DNA from: Methanobrevibacter millerae
GTDB taxonomy: Archaea; Methanobacteriota; Methanobacteria; Methanobacteriales; Methanobacteriaceae
Assembly (NCBI RefSeq): GCF_001477655.1
Contig: NZ_CP011266.1
Location: forward strand, 2,092,001-2,156,000
Length of the DNA stretch: 64,000 nucleotides
Reading direction: 5' to 3'
A program made the translations under genes and the position numbers. Below the pieces are notes generated by a model. That model saw nothing but the letters and a program-made list of their open reading frames with translations, was not told where the DNA came from and searched no databases. Of this stretch, positions 3,428-11,457 are shown piece after piece. The number at the start of each line of letters is the position of its first letter. Position 1 is the first letter of the stretch.

Positions 3428-4459
3428 ATGAATAATGAAATTGTAAAAACATTATTATATACCAGTGAAGATGGGGCAGTGGCGATAAAGGTAATTATTG
3501 ATTCCGAAAATGACACAATGTGGACTACACAAAAAACCATGGCAGAATTATTTGGTAAAAATATCAAAACCATAAGTAAACATTTAACTAATATTTTTGA
3601 GTCTGAAGAGTTGGTAAAATCGGAAGTTACATTCAATCCGAACGATTCCACTAATAGTGGAATCGTTATTATAAATCCTGATGCTAAAACACAGCCAATA
3701 TTATACAACCTGGATGCCATTATCTCTGTTGGCTATCGTGTAAACAGCAAACAGGCAACACACTTCCGCAGATGGGCAACAGGCGTGCTTAGAGAGTATA
3801 TTATAAAAGGTTTTGCACTGGATGATGAGTTACTGAAAAAAGGCTCAAGATTCGGGAAAGATTACTTTGACCATTTGCTTTCAAGAATCAGAGAAATACG
3901 TGCATCAGAAAGAAGATTCAATCAAAAAATCACGGATTTGTATGCAACAAGTGCAGATTACAATCTGGATGCTGATGAAACAAAAGACTTCTTTGCCACC
4001 GTACAGAACATGCTACTCTTTGCCATAACCGGTCAAACCGCTGCTGAAATCATAAAATCCCGCAGCGACAAAACTAAAGTTAACATGGGACTGACAACAT
4101 GGGAAGATGCTCCCCATGGAAAAATTCTACAGGCAGATGTGGTAATTTCAAAAAACTACTTAAACGAAATGGAATTGGATTCACTGAATACACTGGTTGA
4201 CGGTTTTTTAACATTGGCCGAGACAAGGGCAAATTCCCAAAAACCAACATTCATGAAAGACTGGAAAACATTGCTTTACGGATATCTTGAATTAAGCCAA
4301 TTGCCACTATTGGAAGGAAAAGGCAAAATTTCAGCTGTTGAAGCAAAAACTTATGCGATTAACGAGTATAATGAATTCAGAATAAATCAAGATAAGAATT
4401 ATGAATCTGATTTTGATAACCTTATCAAATCCATCAAACGGATGGAAGGTAAAAAATAA
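3428..4459 (+). CDS. rhuM: RhuM family protein
   Basis: The 343 residues match the RhuM family, named from a Salmonella pathogenicity island and common in bacterial and archaeal accessory regions. The biochemical role is unsettled. The N-terminal third has a helix-turn-helix-like segment (TMAELFGKNIKTISKHLTNI) and the family motif QATHFRRWATGVLREYIIKGFALDDELLK near residues 110-140 (long motif, split here by description). The C-terminal half is helical and ends in a lysine-rich tail. GGGAG at 3415-3419 sets the ATG. It lies between rio1 and a rio1 3'-end remnant, so it arrived as an insertion. No integrase accompanies it. Confidence 0.88.
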   Translation: MNNEIVKTLLYTSEDGAVAIKVIIDSENDTMWTTQKTMAELFGKNIKTISKHLTNIFESEELVKSEVTFNPNDSTNSGIVIINPDAKTQPILYNLDAIISVGYRVNSKQATHFRRWATGVLREYIIKGFALDDELLKKGSRFGKDYFDHLLSRIREIRASERRFNQKITDLYATSADYNLDADETKDFFATVQNMLLFAITGQTAAEIIKSRSDKTKVNMGLTTWEDAPHGKILQADVVISKNYLNEMELDSLNTLVDGFLTLAETRANSQKPTFMKDWKTLLYGYLELSQLPLLEGKGKISAVEAKTYAINEYNEFRINQDKNYESDFDNLIKSIKRMEGKK

Positions 4460-4643: not shown

Positions 4644-4979
4644 CTATAATAATTTTTCCAGATATTCCTTAAGTTCTGGAAGCTCAACTTTCATAGTTTC
4701 CCAAACCAGATGCTCAATAACATTTTCATAATCATGAGCATGAATATTTCTCATTGCCTTTAAACTATTCCAAGCTATTTCAGGATGCTTGTCTTTGAAC
4801 TCATCAGACAATCTGCCAATATACTCCCCAATTTGGATAATATTAAACGCACATGCCCTTTGGTAATGATCATTGGTTAAGTATTCATTAAAATCATCAC
4901 CAAAATACTCAATGTCACTTGCTGTCGCTTCACAGTATTCTATGATTTTCTTAATATGTTTTTCATCTTTAGCGTTCAT
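4644..4979 (-). CDS. hepT: HEPN/HepT-like (DUF86) toxin
   Basis: A 111-residue all-helical HEPN protein of the DUF86/HepT group. The RNase-type signature R-x4-H-x-Y is visible as RNIHAHDY near residues 83-90. Family members are usually the toxin of a two-gene system, cleaving RNA or being switched off by AMPylation from the partner nucleotidyltransferase. The start ATG lies inside the 3' end of the upstream mntA gene (11-nt overlap), the standard arrangement with antitoxin first. The unit is bracketed by rio1 3'-end remnants on both sides, so it seems to be a separate insertion from rhuM. Confidence 0.87.
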   Translation of the reverse strand: MNAKDEKHIKKIIEYCEATASDIEYFGDDFNEYLTNDHYQRACAFNIIQIGEYIGRLSDEFKDKHPEIAWNSLKAMRNIHAHDYENVIEHLVWETMKVELPELKEYLEKLL

Positions 4980-5262
4980 AGATTATAACCACATCTTTTT
5001 TGATTTTGTTTAAAAATTCCTTATTATGACTGCATGATGAAACCAAATCAACATGACATTTAAATTCATCTTCCAAGTCTTGAACAAAAGACATATATTT
5101 AATTAAAGAAGTCACATCCCCATCATCCATTATGAAGTCCAAATCACTGTCATCACTTGCCTCATTTCTAGCATAAGATCCAAAAAGGCATAACCTATTA
5201 ACCCCATGCTTAATGGCTATTGGAATGGTTCTTTTTGTGATTTCTTCAATAGTAAATATCAT
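4969..5262 (-). CDS. mntA: MNT-type nucleotidyltransferase antitoxin MntA
   Basis: A minimal nucleotidyltransferase of 97 residues, the antitoxin of the HEPN protein that follows. The polymerase-beta-like motif GSYARNEASDDSDLDF (G-S-x-D-x-D) is complete, and a third acidic residue is in CHVDLV, so catalysis (AMPylation of the toxin) is plausible. The frame is open to a GTG at 5271, but that GTG is part of the AGGTG ribosome site serving the ATG at 5262, which I take as the start. The next gene overlaps its end by 11 nt. Confidence 0.87.
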   Translation of the reverse strand: MIFTIEEITKRTIPIAIKHGVNRLCLFGSYARNEASDDSDLDFIMDDGDVTSLIKYMSFVQDLEDEFKCHVDLVSSCSHNKEFLNKIKKDVVIIYER

Positions 5263-5377
5263 TAAAAACACCTAATGAAAATTAATCTGATTAATATTTA
5301 CTTTTAATTTTATATTAAATAAATATTTTTTTATGCACAAAGTTAATTAAACAAATAATCCAAACTTTATTCAGACA

Positions 5378-5528: not shown

Positions 5529-6494
5529 ATGTTCAAATCAAAAATTAATATCATGAAAAGGATTTTTGAATTAGTCGAAAAATATTTTTTTATAATAATA
5601 TTGGTGGCAGTAGCTATTTCTTTAGTTTATCCAAATTCATTTAAATGGGTTTTAAGTGAGTATAATGGCATCAACATTATCAATTTACTTTTAAGTATTG
5701 TTCTTTTTACAATGGGAACCACATTAAAAGTAGATGACTTCATTAATGTGTTCAAAAATCCTAAGGCAATTGCGGTTGGAATTTCAGCGCAATATATTAT
5801 AATGCCCATCATAGCATTTGCTCTTGCAAGCGCATTTTCTCTAGATACTGCATTGACAGTGGGACTCATTCTTGTTGGAACAGTACCTGGAGGAACCGCG
5901 TCTGACGTCATTACTTTTCTTGCAAAGGGAGATGTGGCATTATCCGTTTCTTTGACTGCGGTTTCTACTGTGATTTCACCCATATTAACCCCATTAATCA
6001 CATTATTATTAATAGGTAATCAAATTCATTTCAATCCAGTTGACATGTTCATTTCGATTGTTCAAATAGTAATTGTCCCAATTATTTTAGGTTTAATCTT
6101 GAATTACAAATTCCCTGATTTTTGTGATAAATTAAAAATTTATTTACCAACAATATCATCTATTGTGATTTGTTTAATCGTAGCAGGAGTAATTGGTGCC
6201 AATAAACAAGCCATTTTAACTTCATCCACCATAATATTCATTGTCATTTCACTGCAATATCTAATTGCAATGTTACTTGGATTTGGAATTGGTTACTTTG
6301 CAGGAATGGATAGAAAACAGAGAATTACAGTAGCTATCGAACTGGCATTTCAAAATTCAGGTTTGTCAACCAGCCTTGCAAAAACTCATTTTCCAAACCT
6401 ATCCCAAGCAACAGTTCCCGGAGCACTTTATTCTGTCTTGCAGAATTTTGCAGGATCAATTCTTGCCTATGTATTCAGAAAATATCAATCTTAA
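5529..6494 (+). CDS. BASS/SBF family (bile acid:sodium symporter-like) transporter
   Basis: A 321-residue membrane protein with about ten hydrophobic segments, fitting the bile acid:sodium symporter (BASS) superfamily, whose members move organic anions such as pantoate, pyruvate or keto acids with sodium. Family features are LVGTVPGGTASDVITFLAKGD in the first half (two crossing helices with GG) and ELAFQNSGLSTSLAKTHF in the second. The start could be ATG 5529 or ATG 5553; neither has a clear ribosome site. It stands alone on the plus strand beyond the last rio1 remnant. The substrate is not predictable from sequence. Confidence 0.85.
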   Translation: MFKSKINIMKRIFELVEKYFFIIILVAVAISLVYPNSFKWVLSEYNGINIINLLLSIVLFTMGTTLKVDDFINVFKNPKAIAVGISAQYIIMPIIAFALASAFSLDTALTVGLILVGTVPGGTASDVITFLAKGDVALSVSLTAVSTVISPILTPLITLLLIGNQIHFNPVDMFISIVQIVIVPIILGLILNYKFPDFCDKLKIYLPTISSIVICLIVAGVIGANKQAILTSSTIIFIVISLQYLIAMLLGFGIGYFAGMDRKQRITVAIELAFQNSGLSTSLAKTHFPNLSQATVPGALYSVLQNFAGSILAYVFRKYQS

Positions 6495-6778
6495 TTGCAA
6501 GAATAGACATATTCTTCATGTCAATGCAAACCAATATTTTTTTATTCTTTCATTGGTTGGCAAAATCCTCTATTTATAGAAGAATTCTTTTTAAATTTTT
6601 TTCAGGATTTTCAGGAGTTTTCTTAATGAAAATTAGACACTTTTCAAGAATTCAAAAATAATAATATGTTAAATTTTTAGAAAATACATTACCAAAAAAC
6701 ATTTTTTTACAAAAAAATATATTAATATATAAACAAATTATATATAATTAAAAAAATTATAAAATATGGGGAGATAGC
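6495..6778. other. AT-rich intergenic region with promoter for the aminomutase gene
   Basis: No gene is supported here. The stretch 6715-6765 has several TATA-like runs (ATATATTAATATATAAAC, TATATAATT) upstream of GGGGAG at 6768-6773, which appears to be the ribosome site of the next gene. Confidence 0.4.
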
Positions 6779-8005
6779 ATAAACACAAATAGAAAAAAAT
6801 CATTAATTCGCTCAAATGAACTCGATAGAATTGCGATTAATGATATGAAACATAAAACAAAAATTAGATTAGGATTCAGTGAGTTTTCTAAGAAATTATA
6901 TGTGGATACAAAAAATAAAATTCTAACAGAATTAAATGCAAGTGAAAAAGATTGGAACAATCCCAAATGGCAATTAAAAAATCGTATCAGCGATGTAAGT
7001 GAAATTTCAAATTACATTAATCTTACAGATGAAGAATATGAAAATATAAAAGATGTCAGTGAAACATACCGATTTGCAATAACACCGTATTATTTTTCAT
7101 TGATTGATTTTGAAAATCCGAATTGTCCAATTAAATTGCAGTCAATACCAAATATTAAAGAACTTGATGAATCAGGCCAATTGGATCCCATGAATGAAGA
7201 ACAATCAAATCCCTCCGGAAAAATCACCCGAAGATATCCCAATAAATTAATCATCAATGTTACTAATGCATGCCCCATGTACTGCAGACACTGCCAGCGC
7301 CGCAGATTGATAGGCGGATTTGATAAAAATACCTCCAAAAGAGCTATCGATGAATCAATAGATTTTATAAAAAATAATCCTACAATCAGAGAAGTATTGA
7401 TTACTGGAGGAGATGCATTATTATTATCAAATAAACGATTGAAAGAAATATTTAATAAATTATCCGGTATTGATCATGTGGAAGTATTGAGGATTGGTAC
7501 AAGAACATTGGCAACACTACCATTTAGAATAAATGATGAACTGGCCGTTCTGCTTAGAAAATACAGGGTGAATATTTCAACACAATTCAATCATGCCTGT
7601 GAAATTACTCCTGAAGCTGTTCAGGCAATTGATACACTTGTCGACCATGGAATACTTGTGAGAAACCAAATGGTATTATTACATAATATTAATGACGATA
7701 AATATTGCATTCAAAAAACTAATGAAGAATTGCAAAAATACCGAGTAATTCCATATTATTTATTCCATCCAAAAGATATTAAAGGCACCAAACATTTCCA
7801 AGTGGATATTTCCAAAGGTTTAGAAATTATGAAGCATTTGGAAGGCAGAACAAGCGGCATGTGCAAACCTACATATGTATATAATTCACCGCTTGGTTTG
7901 GGCAAAGTTCCTTTAGTACCAATGGAAAATATCGAACATGATGAAAACGGATATAAATTCACAACATGGGAAAATAAAATAGTTAAAAAAGATTATATGG
8001 AATAA
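6779..8005 (+). CDS. eam: Predicted glutamate 2,3-aminomutase (KamA-type radical SAM/PLP enzyme)
   Basis: This is a lysine-2,3-aminomutase family enzyme: radical SAM cysteines C-PMY-C-RH-C at residues 143-150 (counted from the ATG at 6845) and the PLP lysine K354 in PLGLGK. In lysine aminomutase two aspartates (D293, D330 of the clostridial enzyme) hold the substrate side-chain amine. Here the aligned residues are K310 and N347, with the same 37-residue spacing, which is the known signature of glutamate 2,3-aminomutase. The product would be beta-glutamate, an osmolyte of methanogens. The strong GGGGAG at 6768-6773 points to an ATA start at 6779, in frame and adding 22 residues; the ATG at 6845 has no ribosome site. 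An acidic amino acid symporter is next door. Confidence 0.8.
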   Translation: MNTNRKKSLIRSNELDRIAINDMKHKTKIRLGFSEFSKKLYVDTKNKILTELNASEKDWNNPKWQLKNRISDVSEISNYINLTDEEYENIKDVSETYRFAITPYYFSLIDFENPNCPIKLQSIPNIKELDESGQLDPMNEEQSNPSGKITRRYPNKLIINVTNACPMYCRHCQRRRLIGGFDKNTSKRAIDESIDFIKNNPTIREVLITGGDALLLSNKRLKEIFNKLSGIDHVEVLRIGTRTLATLPFRINDELAVLLRKYRVNISTQFNHACEITPEAVQAIDTLVDHGILVRNQMVLLHNINDDKYCIQKTNEELQKYRVIPYYLFHPKDIKGTKHFQVDISKGLEIMKHLEGRTSGMCKPTYVYNSPLGLGKVPLVPMENIEHDENGYKFTTWENKIVKKDYME

Positions 8006-8075: not shown

Positions 8076-9365
8076 TCATATAATTTTTGTCTCTTTTTCT
8101 GCTTCCTTCTTGCCATTGAAAATATCAATGTCCATGGCTTTATTTCTAAATGAAACAATCATTGAACAAATTGCATCACCAGTGACATTGACTGCTGTTC
8201 TAAACATATCGAGAATATGGTCTATTCCGAAAATTATACCAATTGCATCAATCGGCAATCCAATTGAATTAAATACCATTGTTAATGTAACAAGTCCGAC
8301 AGAAGGAACACTTGCTGTTCCAATTGATGCCATCACAGCAGTGAAAATTACAGTCAATAATGCAGAAGTGCCTAAATCAACACCATATGCCTGGGCTGCA
8401 AACATTACAGCAACACCCTGCATAATAGCAGTACCGTCCATATTTATTGTAGCACCCAAAGGAATTGTAAATGAAGACACATCACGTGACACTCCCATTT
8501 CAGACAGTTTTTCTATATTTAAAGGGATAGTTGCATTGGATGTTGAAGATGAAAATGCAAAAAATATGACCGGCATGAATTTTCTAAAGAAGTGGATTGG
8601 ATTTAATCTTGTAAATATCACAAGCAAGGATGGGTAAACTACAAATGCCTGAATTGCCAAACCTATAAGAACACAAACAAAATATTTGGAAAGAGGCAAT
8701 ATTCCTTCTATTCCCAAACTTCCAAATGTTTTTGCCATAAGACAAAATACTCCAATAGGTGCAAATTTCATAACAATGGAAGTCATTTCCATCATAATCC
8801 TATTACCCTCTTTGAAAAAATCATTGAACAATTTCGTTTCATTTTTTAATTTAGCCAAAATAATACCAGTTAAAAGTCCAAAAATTATCACAGGCAACAT
8901 GTCCCCATTAGCCAATGAATTAAATGGATTATCTGGCACAATATTTAAAACAGTATCAGCCATCGTTTGATTAATAGCTACATCAGCAGTTTGAACTACA
9001 TGAGACATGTCCAAACCCAAACCGGGTTTAATTAAAATGCCTATGGATAAAGCAACTGTTACTGCAATTGCAGTTGTAATAAGATAAATCAATATTGTTG
9101 TTCCACCGATAGAACCTAATGTCTTAATATCTGAAATCGAAGCTACACCAACAACAATAGAACAAAAAACAAGAGGAACAACAAGCATTTTCATTAATTT
9201 AATGAATAAGTTACCACCCAAATAAAAAACATTCTCCATTAAAATTACATCTTTTATAAATGGGTTATGAACCCAAAAATTCAATATCAAACCGAAAATT
9301 AGGCCCAGTACCATACCAATTAATATCCAGTTACCTAAACTAATACTTCTTAATTTGTTTATCAT
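8076..9365 (-). CDS. Dicarboxylate/amino acid:cation symporter (DAACS), acidic amino acid type
   Basis: The 429 residues match the glutamate/aspartate symporter family. The HP1 serine-rich loop is AFSSSTSNATIPLN, the sodium/substrate motif NMDGTAIMQ is present, and TM8 reads DMFRTAVNVTGD. In this helix D386 and R389 align with the aspartate and arginine that bind the amino group and side-chain carboxylate in GltPh, so an acidic amino acid substrate is likely. The protein would import glutamate or aspartate with sodium or protons. GTGTGATG precedes the ATG. It converges on the predicted glutamate aminomutase gene (70-nt gap), a functional match, and is divergent from the GNAT gene. Confidence 0.92.
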   Translation of the reverse strand: MINKLRSISLGNWILIGMVLGLIFGLILNFWVHNPFIKDVILMENVFYLGGNLFIKLMKMLVVPLVFCSIVVGVASISDIKTLGSIGGTTILIYLITTAIAVTVALSIGILIKPGLGLDMSHVVQTADVAINQTMADTVLNIVPDNPFNSLANGDMLPVIIFGLLTGIILAKLKNETKLFNDFFKEGNRIMMEMTSIVMKFAPIGVFCLMAKTFGSLGIEGILPLSKYFVCVLIGLAIQAFVVYPSLLVIFTRLNPIHFFRKFMPVIFFAFSSSTSNATIPLNIEKLSEMGVSRDVSSFTIPLGATINMDGTAIMQGVAVMFAAQAYGVDLGTSALLTVIFTAVMASIGTASVPSVGLVTLTMVFNSIGLPIDAIGIIFGIDHILDMFRTAVNVTGDAICSMIVSFRNKAMDIDIFNGKKEAEKETKII

Positions 9366-10518: not shown

Positions 10519-11457
10519 ATGTTTAAATTTGATAAAGAACAAGAAGTTTTTGACTTCGCTGGAGTCAAAATGGGTGGACAACCTGGAGAATACCCTACTG
10601 TTTTAGCAGGTACTATTTTCTATGGTGGACACAATATTCTTAATGATGAATTAACTGGTGACTTCGACAAAAGCAAAGCCGAAGAATTGGTTAATGATAT
10701 GGCATCAATTTCAGACGTAACTGGAAACCCATATATTGTGCAAGTTTTCGGACAAACCGAAGAAGCACTTCCAAAATATATTGAATATATAGGTGAAATA
10801 TGTGATGCTCCTTTCCTTATAGATTCAACATCTGGAGACGCCAGGGTTGCTGGTGCACAATATTCCGATGAGGTCGGATTAACTGATAGAGCAATCTATA
10901 ACTCAATCAATATGGCAGCGGACAAATCTGAATTAGAAGCACTTGCAGATACCGATATTTCCGCATCAATCATTCTTGGATTCAACCCAATGAATGCTAC
11001 TGTAGAAGGTAAAATGAACATGTGGGAAAACGGGGACGATGGTGCATATGAAAAAGGTTTATTAGAAGTGGCTGCCGAATGTGGTATTGACAAATTTATG
11101 ATGGATACCGCTGTAACTCCATTAGGACAGGGTGCGGGCATTGCTGCAAGAACTTCCTTTGCAGAAAAAGCTAAATGGGGATATCCTGTTGGATCAGGAA
11201 TACACAACGTACCATCCGCATGGGATTGGTTAAGAGAATATAAAAAACAAGGAAATAAAACCGCATTTACTGTATGTGATATCGGTGCAAATATTGTACA
11301 GGTAATGTGTGCAGGAGACTTTGTTCTATTTGGACCTATTGAAAATGCAAAAATTGCATTCCCTGCTGTTGCACAAACTGATATGTTCATATCAGAAGCA
11401 GCAAAACCATTAGGTACTGAACCTGTAGATTTCCACCCTATGAACAATTTGTTATAA
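10519..11457 (+). CDS. mtrH: Tetrahydromethanopterin S-methyltransferase subunit H (MtrH), stand-alone
   Basis: MtrH transfers the methyl group from methyl-tetrahydromethanopterin to the corrinoid of MtrA within the Mtr complex. The 312 residues are full length for a canonical MtrH; MFKFDKEQEVFDFAGVKMGG at the start and GFNPMNATVEGKMNMWE, FMMDTAVTPLGQGAGIAAR in the TIM barrel are family features. What is odd is the setting: mtrH usually ends an mtrEDCBAFGH operon, but no other mtr gene is within the window, and it has its own promoter region. It may be the second copy in the genome or have separated from the operon. A GC-rich hairpin follows at 11565. Confidence 0.93.
   Translation: MFKFDKEQEVFDFAGVKMGGQPGEYPTVLAGTIFYGGHNILNDELTGDFDKSKAEELVNDMASISDVTGNPYIVQVFGQTEEALPKYIEYIGEICDAPFLIDSTSGDARVAGAQYSDEVGLTDRAIYNSINMAADKSELEALADTDISASIILGFNPMNATVEGKMNMWENGDDGAYEKGLLEVAAECGIDKFMMDTAVTPLGQGAGIAARTSFAEKAKWGYPVGSGIHNVPSAWDWLREYKKQGNKTAFTVCDIGANIVQVMCAGDFVLFGPIENAKIAFPAVAQTDMFISEAAKPLGTEPVDFHPMNNLL

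Follow-up and report, generated by a model that had tools for sequence, protein, structure and literature searches.

Glutamate 2,3-aminomutase (EAM; NCBIfam TIGR04368) is an enzyme that Ruzicka and Frey reportedly characterised in Clostridioides difficile in 2007, and lysine 2,3-aminomutase (KAM or AblA; structure 2a5h, TIGR03820) is its counterpart for comparison here. In marine methanogens, beta-glutamate is a static compatible solute, and a glutamate aminomutase was excluded by NMR as its source, according to a review (PMC1224877). Bacterial eam genes are associated with Na+ riboswitches (PMC9337991). A third point of comparison is translational: infC, ccpN and cvfC1 of Staphylococcus aureus carry AUA or AUU start codons that are conserved across species behind strong Shine–Dalgarno (SD) sequences, and AUA starts with an extended SD gave approximately 10% of the expression seen with AUG when the medium was poor (PMC13009471).

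We analysed a 64,000-nucleotide stretch of the Methanobrevibacter millerae SM9 genome (bases 2,092,001–2,156,000 of 2,543,538 bp; hereafter, the window) that carries an eam-like gene. Its product resembles EAM in its Lys/Asn signature, N-terminal extension, CxxxCxxC motif, pyridoxal phosphate (PLP) lysine and clade, and differs from it in a profile score below the family cut-off (504 versus 650 bits), an archaeal host, a proposed AUA start and a lysine at the position of KAM R116; a riboswitch search of the window gave no match. With KAM it shares the predicted fold, cluster motif, PLP lysine and R134, whereas both lysine-binding aspartates are replaced and the protein falls outside the lysine clade. 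The gene is like the three S. aureus genes in having an apparently non-canonical start conserved across species and a strong SD, but is archaeal and encodes a metabolic enzyme rather than a regulator. Archaea also lack bacterial IF3, unlike the host of the S. aureus AUA and AUU starts.

Identity of the aminomutase

The frame at 6779–8005 is open over 408 codons. The gene, the residues discussed below and the flanking genes are as follows (window coordinates).

6779–8005, forward strand: eam-like gene for a KamA-family radical SAM aminomutase, probably a glutamate 2,3-aminomutase, 408 amino acids (profiles, match to 2a5h)
7271–7294, forward strand: CxxxCxxC motif for [4Fe-4S] and SAM, C165, C169 and C172 (aligned with KAM C125, C129 and C132; invariant in all rows)
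7772–7774, forward strand: K332, at the position of KAM Asp293, proposed to pair with the side-chain carboxylate of the substrate (alignment)
7883–7885, forward strand: N369, at the position of KAM Asp330 (alignment)
7904–7906, forward strand: K376, the PLP lysine, KAM K337 (alignment)
5529–6494, forward strand: neighbouring SBF sodium symporter-like protein (PF01758, 7e-43; missing beside eam in most relatives)
8076–9365, reverse strand: convergent neighbouring Na+:dicarboxylate (SDF) symporter (PF00375, 6e-126; not next to eam in the relatives read)

The closest solved structure to the 408-residue protein is 2a5h (E 3e-92), which is also the best fold match (TM 0.76) of its AlphaFold2 model (pLDDT 84). 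The protein scored 306.7 bits against the profile of the KamA radical SAM family (TIGR00238; cut-off 199.2), and no second KamA-family protein was found in the SM9 genome at E ≤ 0.001. Alignment with 2a5h placed Lys and Asn exactly at KAM D293 and D330, with the spacing of 37 residues, and the PLP lysine seven residues after the Asn, as the preliminary description had proposed; its numbering (K310 and N347) holds when counted from the first ATG (6845), and becomes K332, N369 and K376 when counted from the conserved N terminus (ATA, 6779). Both residues stay in register at the substrate site when clostridial relatives are included, and Arg134 (KAM numbering) and the three cluster cysteines are retained.

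That this pair separates glutamate from lysine enzymes was borne out by Lys/Asn in 55 of 55 glutamate-type rows (21 Methanobrevibacter orthologues and 34 others) and Asp/Asp in 19 of 19 lysine-type rows (18 clostridial controls and 2a5h). The signature is not a chance one, because it is present in 21 of 21 orthologues and in 34 of 34 other glutamate-type proteins, and all lysine-type proteins have the two aspartates. In the tree, the glutamate and lysine clades were split with support of 100/100, and the window protein lay in the glutamate clade.

The profile scores point the same way, with the glutamate profile ahead by 147 bits (TIGR04368, 504.2; TIGR03820, 357.2). Clostridial glutamate-type controls scored 713/489, 677/476 and 637/453 bits on TIGR04368/TIGR03820, and lysine-type controls 521/660, 503/640, 492/619 and 462/733, with the lysine profile ahead by 126–271. 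The TIGR04368 score on its own proves little, because lysine-type proteins reach 462–522 bits on that profile. The window protein, like its sister from a Clostridiales MAG (526 bits), lies below the equivalog cut-off of 650 bits, and we therefore describe it as probably a glutamate 2,3-aminomutase, from a divergent subclade, and not as a certified member. It also falls short of the lysine 2,3-aminomutase cut-off (525.4 bits) and lacks Asp293 and Asp330. Signature residues, profile scores and phylogeny thus all support a glutamate-type over a lysine-type identity.

A KamA-type aminomutase acting on another substrate (lysine, arginine, glutamine, aspartate or a peptide residue) would be in keeping with the sub-threshold TIGR04368 score and with a divergent subclade in which KAM R116 has become Lys. 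We consider this improbable, given that both lysine-anchoring aspartates are gone and that clade and profile difference both fit glutamate. Most likely, the window protein is a glutamate 2,3-aminomutase that would move the amino group of L-glutamate from C2 to C3 in a PLP- and SAM-dependent reaction, giving beta-glutamate. The [4Fe-4S] cluster on C165, C169 and C172 would cleave SAM to a 5'-deoxyadenosyl radical, and PLP on K376 would carry the migrating amino group. With K332 and N369 in place of the two aspartates that hold the side-chain amine of lysine, a side-chain carboxylate would fit; on these sequence grounds, glutamate is the predicted substrate.

A conserved ATA at the start of eam

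The true N terminus of the 408-residue frame lacks a canonical start codon (ATG, GTG or TTG), and the codon at 6779 is ATA, a non-canonical start that the preliminary description of the same frame had left unremarked. Three features define the region.

6779–6781, forward strand: proposed AUA start codon (ATA in 21 of 21 orthologues)
6779–6844, forward strand: N-terminal 22 codons, lost if translation starts at the first ATG, at 6845 (conserved protein, profile, clostridial starts, AlphaFold2)
6768–6775, forward strand: SD-like GGGGAGAT ahead of the ATA (duplex with the 16S 3' end, −7.2 kcal/mol)

All 21 orthologues (the window and L002–L021) have ATA at this position. Each of the 16 other invariant isoleucine columns uses two or three codons in these orthologues, with ATA at 38% overall. 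The codons that follow are conserved as protein: the motif I[ND]xNRKKSLIRSxELD is found in the 21 species and matches the start of the TIGR04368 profile from position 2, the ATG starts of clostridial homologues lie at roughly the position of the ATA, and AlphaFold2 predicts residues 2–26 of the extension as a helix (pLDDT 86–89). Across the 21 relatives, the SD duplex with the 16S 3' end averaged −8.1 kcal/mol, all being −7.0 or stronger, compared with −6.5 among 192 genes with an ATG start and −3.5 in random stretches; the SD ahead of the ATA is thus stronger on average than that of ordinary ATG-start genes. This gene thus has the marks of a conserved non-canonical start: the same codon across species (ATA in 21 of 21), an SD and, upstream in 14 of 21 and downstream in 8 of 21, the lack of an alternative ATG.

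As a control for other conserved ATA starts, we compared parts of two complete genomes, 0.8 Mb of SM9 and 1.2 Mb of one relative. Among the 390 orthologue pairs, no other gene had an equally long, well-scoring conserved frame ahead of the first canonical start codon, and most of the other matches were antisense shadows or conserved leaders. Whenever A or G follows ATA, TAA or TAG arises in another frame; an overlapping stop codon is nevertheless an unlikely reason for the conservation, as upstream frames usually stop earlier. Some relatives have mini-uORFs (ATG-RGG-TAG) before the ATA, which are not conserved across them.

Translation might instead begin downstream, at the ATG at 6845, or at an upstream ATG, the ATA being part of a conserved DNA or RNA element or an ordinary isoleucine codon. 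The codon-23 ATG is indeed present in 13 of the 21 orthologues, and seven have an open in-frame ATG 15–21 nt upstream, which leaves the start ambiguous in those seven relatives. Against this, the codon-23 ATG is missing in the other eight, 14 of 21 have no open in-frame ATG in the 45 nt preceding the ATA and no upstream one is conserved among the 21; moreover, the 22 codons are conserved as protein, clostridia included, and the SD spacing is right for the ATA. We regard initiation elsewhere as unlikely, and the sequence comparisons suggest that this archaeal gene has a conserved AUA start codon, with initiation predicted at 6779.

A single transition would convert ATA to ATG, yet this is absent in 21 lineages, which suggests that AUG is selected against at the eam start. 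AUA is a very rare start codon, and its apparent use in all 21 species further suggests that EAM output is limited or regulated. If bacterial AUA starts are a guide, translation from AUA behind a strong SD may hold expression low or adjustable, and the start may accordingly serve a regulatory purpose. On balance, we lean towards the view that an archaeal gene acquired from bacteria, with an AUG start in the source, was fixed clade-wide with AUA and a strong SD that dim or switch beta-glutamate synthesis at the level of translation, which would make it the first conserved AUA start in Archaea in the literature searched. That literature contained only bacterial or eukaryotic AUA starts, which is not proof that no archaeal case has been published.

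Distribution and origin

Of 139 Methanobacteriaceae genomes, 21 carry the gene, and these belong to a single genus out of 17; the other genera sampled from the phylum gave no match. The named matches were Methanobrevibacter MAGs, most of them labelled as rumen or ruminant, followed by a Clostridiales MAG at 64% identity and then by Lachnospiraceae and Clostridium at 47–49%. The 21 Methanobrevibacter rows formed one clade in the tree (100/99), inside the glutamate clade and with the Clostridiales MAG as its sister (100/100). A horizontal transfer from a clostridial donor is thus probable, and was most likely a single acquisition by an ancestor within rumen Methanobrevibacter.

In three Methanobrevibacter MAGs (L050:185–7512, L057 and L058; read by eye), eam lies near or beside glutamine synthetase-like and archaeal glutamate synthase-like genes, on opposite sides of this cluster in different MAGs; the proximity fits glutamate metabolism generally. 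An operon logic for SM9 eam and its flanking symporters was dropped, as neither symporter is retained next to eam by most relatives. Scans with bacterial promoter and terminator models gave no signal above chance.

Possible roles of the product

The preliminary description had pointed to beta-glutamate as a methanogen osmolyte whose synthesis gene is often unassigned, a link that is borne out only in part and is weaker than the enzyme assignment. An osmolyte role is plausible: a c-di-AMP riboswitch (RF00379) lies directly upstream of nine clostridial glutamate-type aminomutase genes (L088, L090–L094, L096, L097 and L118), pointing to osmotic control of bacterial eam. The gap in methanogen beta-glutamate synthesis is not filled by this gene, because eam is confined to one genus, its named matches come from ruminant guts and it was apparently transferred from clostridia. 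If glutamate-type, the window eam would be a separate, acquired route to beta-glutamate. Rumen salinity is modest, which, together with a window free of detected riboswitches and the NMR result in marine methanogens, counts against a simple osmolyte reading.

The same enzyme could instead supply beta-glutamate as a building block for non-ribosomal peptides. In the nearest bacterial relative, Clostridiales UBA1742 (L059:9017–15566), eam lies between an ATP-grasp gene and condensation–adenylation and reductase genes of a non-ribosomal peptide synthetase (NRPS), and in Methanobrevibacter MAG RUG14185 (L052:351–11045) a 3,125-residue NRPS with two adenylation and five condensation domains follows eam by 91 bp on the same strand. 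Within the genus, an NRPS was present in 20 of 21 eam-positive and 27 of 46 eam-negative genomes (Fisher p 0.003, uncorrected for phylogeny, habitat and genome size, which weakens the association), and incednine biosynthesis requires a radical SAM enzyme proposed to be a glutamate 2,3-aminomutase (PMC11284099). However, no NRPS lies beside eam in SM9 and most relatives (in SM9, neither an NRPS nor a glutamine synthetase or glutamate synthase gene is adjacent), the two eam-adjacent NRPSs are only 24–30% alike, and their adenylation cores retain, by eye, the FD of alpha-amino-acid domains. We consider a peptide-precursor role possible but doubtful, and judge the osmolyte role about twice as probable. 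Beta-glutamate would then most likely serve as an inert osmolyte. Taken as a whole, an account in which a glutamate 2,3-aminomutase was acquired from clostridia, is translated at a low or adjustable level from AUA and makes an osmolyte seems likely to us. The UBA1742 NRPS, which ends in a reductase domain, spans two reading frames, perhaps because of a frameshift in the MAG.

Implications

If these assignments are right, some rumen methanogens make beta-glutamate through an aminomutase acquired from clostridial neighbours, a route thought to be unused by marine methanogens. The conserved AUA start, absent from the preliminary description, is the most surprising part; if true, it would give Archaea a rare natural example of control through the start codon, and gene finders limited to ATG, GTG and TTG can truncate or mis-start the EAM protein. 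Beta-glutamate is also an under-studied gut metabolite: in a human cohort, stool beta-glutamate was raised in Parkinson's disease and correlated with Methanobrevibacter smithii (PMC12502400). The eam search returned no M. smithii locus, and the beta-glutamate in Parkinson's disease may therefore come from other organisms or another route.

Other genes in the window

A stand-alone MtrH-like gene (methyltransferase subunit H; 10519–11457, by eye) is located between the SDF/acetyltransferase genes and KH/Top6B genes, and was absent from the eam neighbourhoods of the relatives searched. On the reverse strand at 4644–5271, adjacent small genes resemble a HEPN/MNT (nucleotidyltransferase) toxin–antitoxin pair and lie beside a RhuM-family gene (3428–4459).
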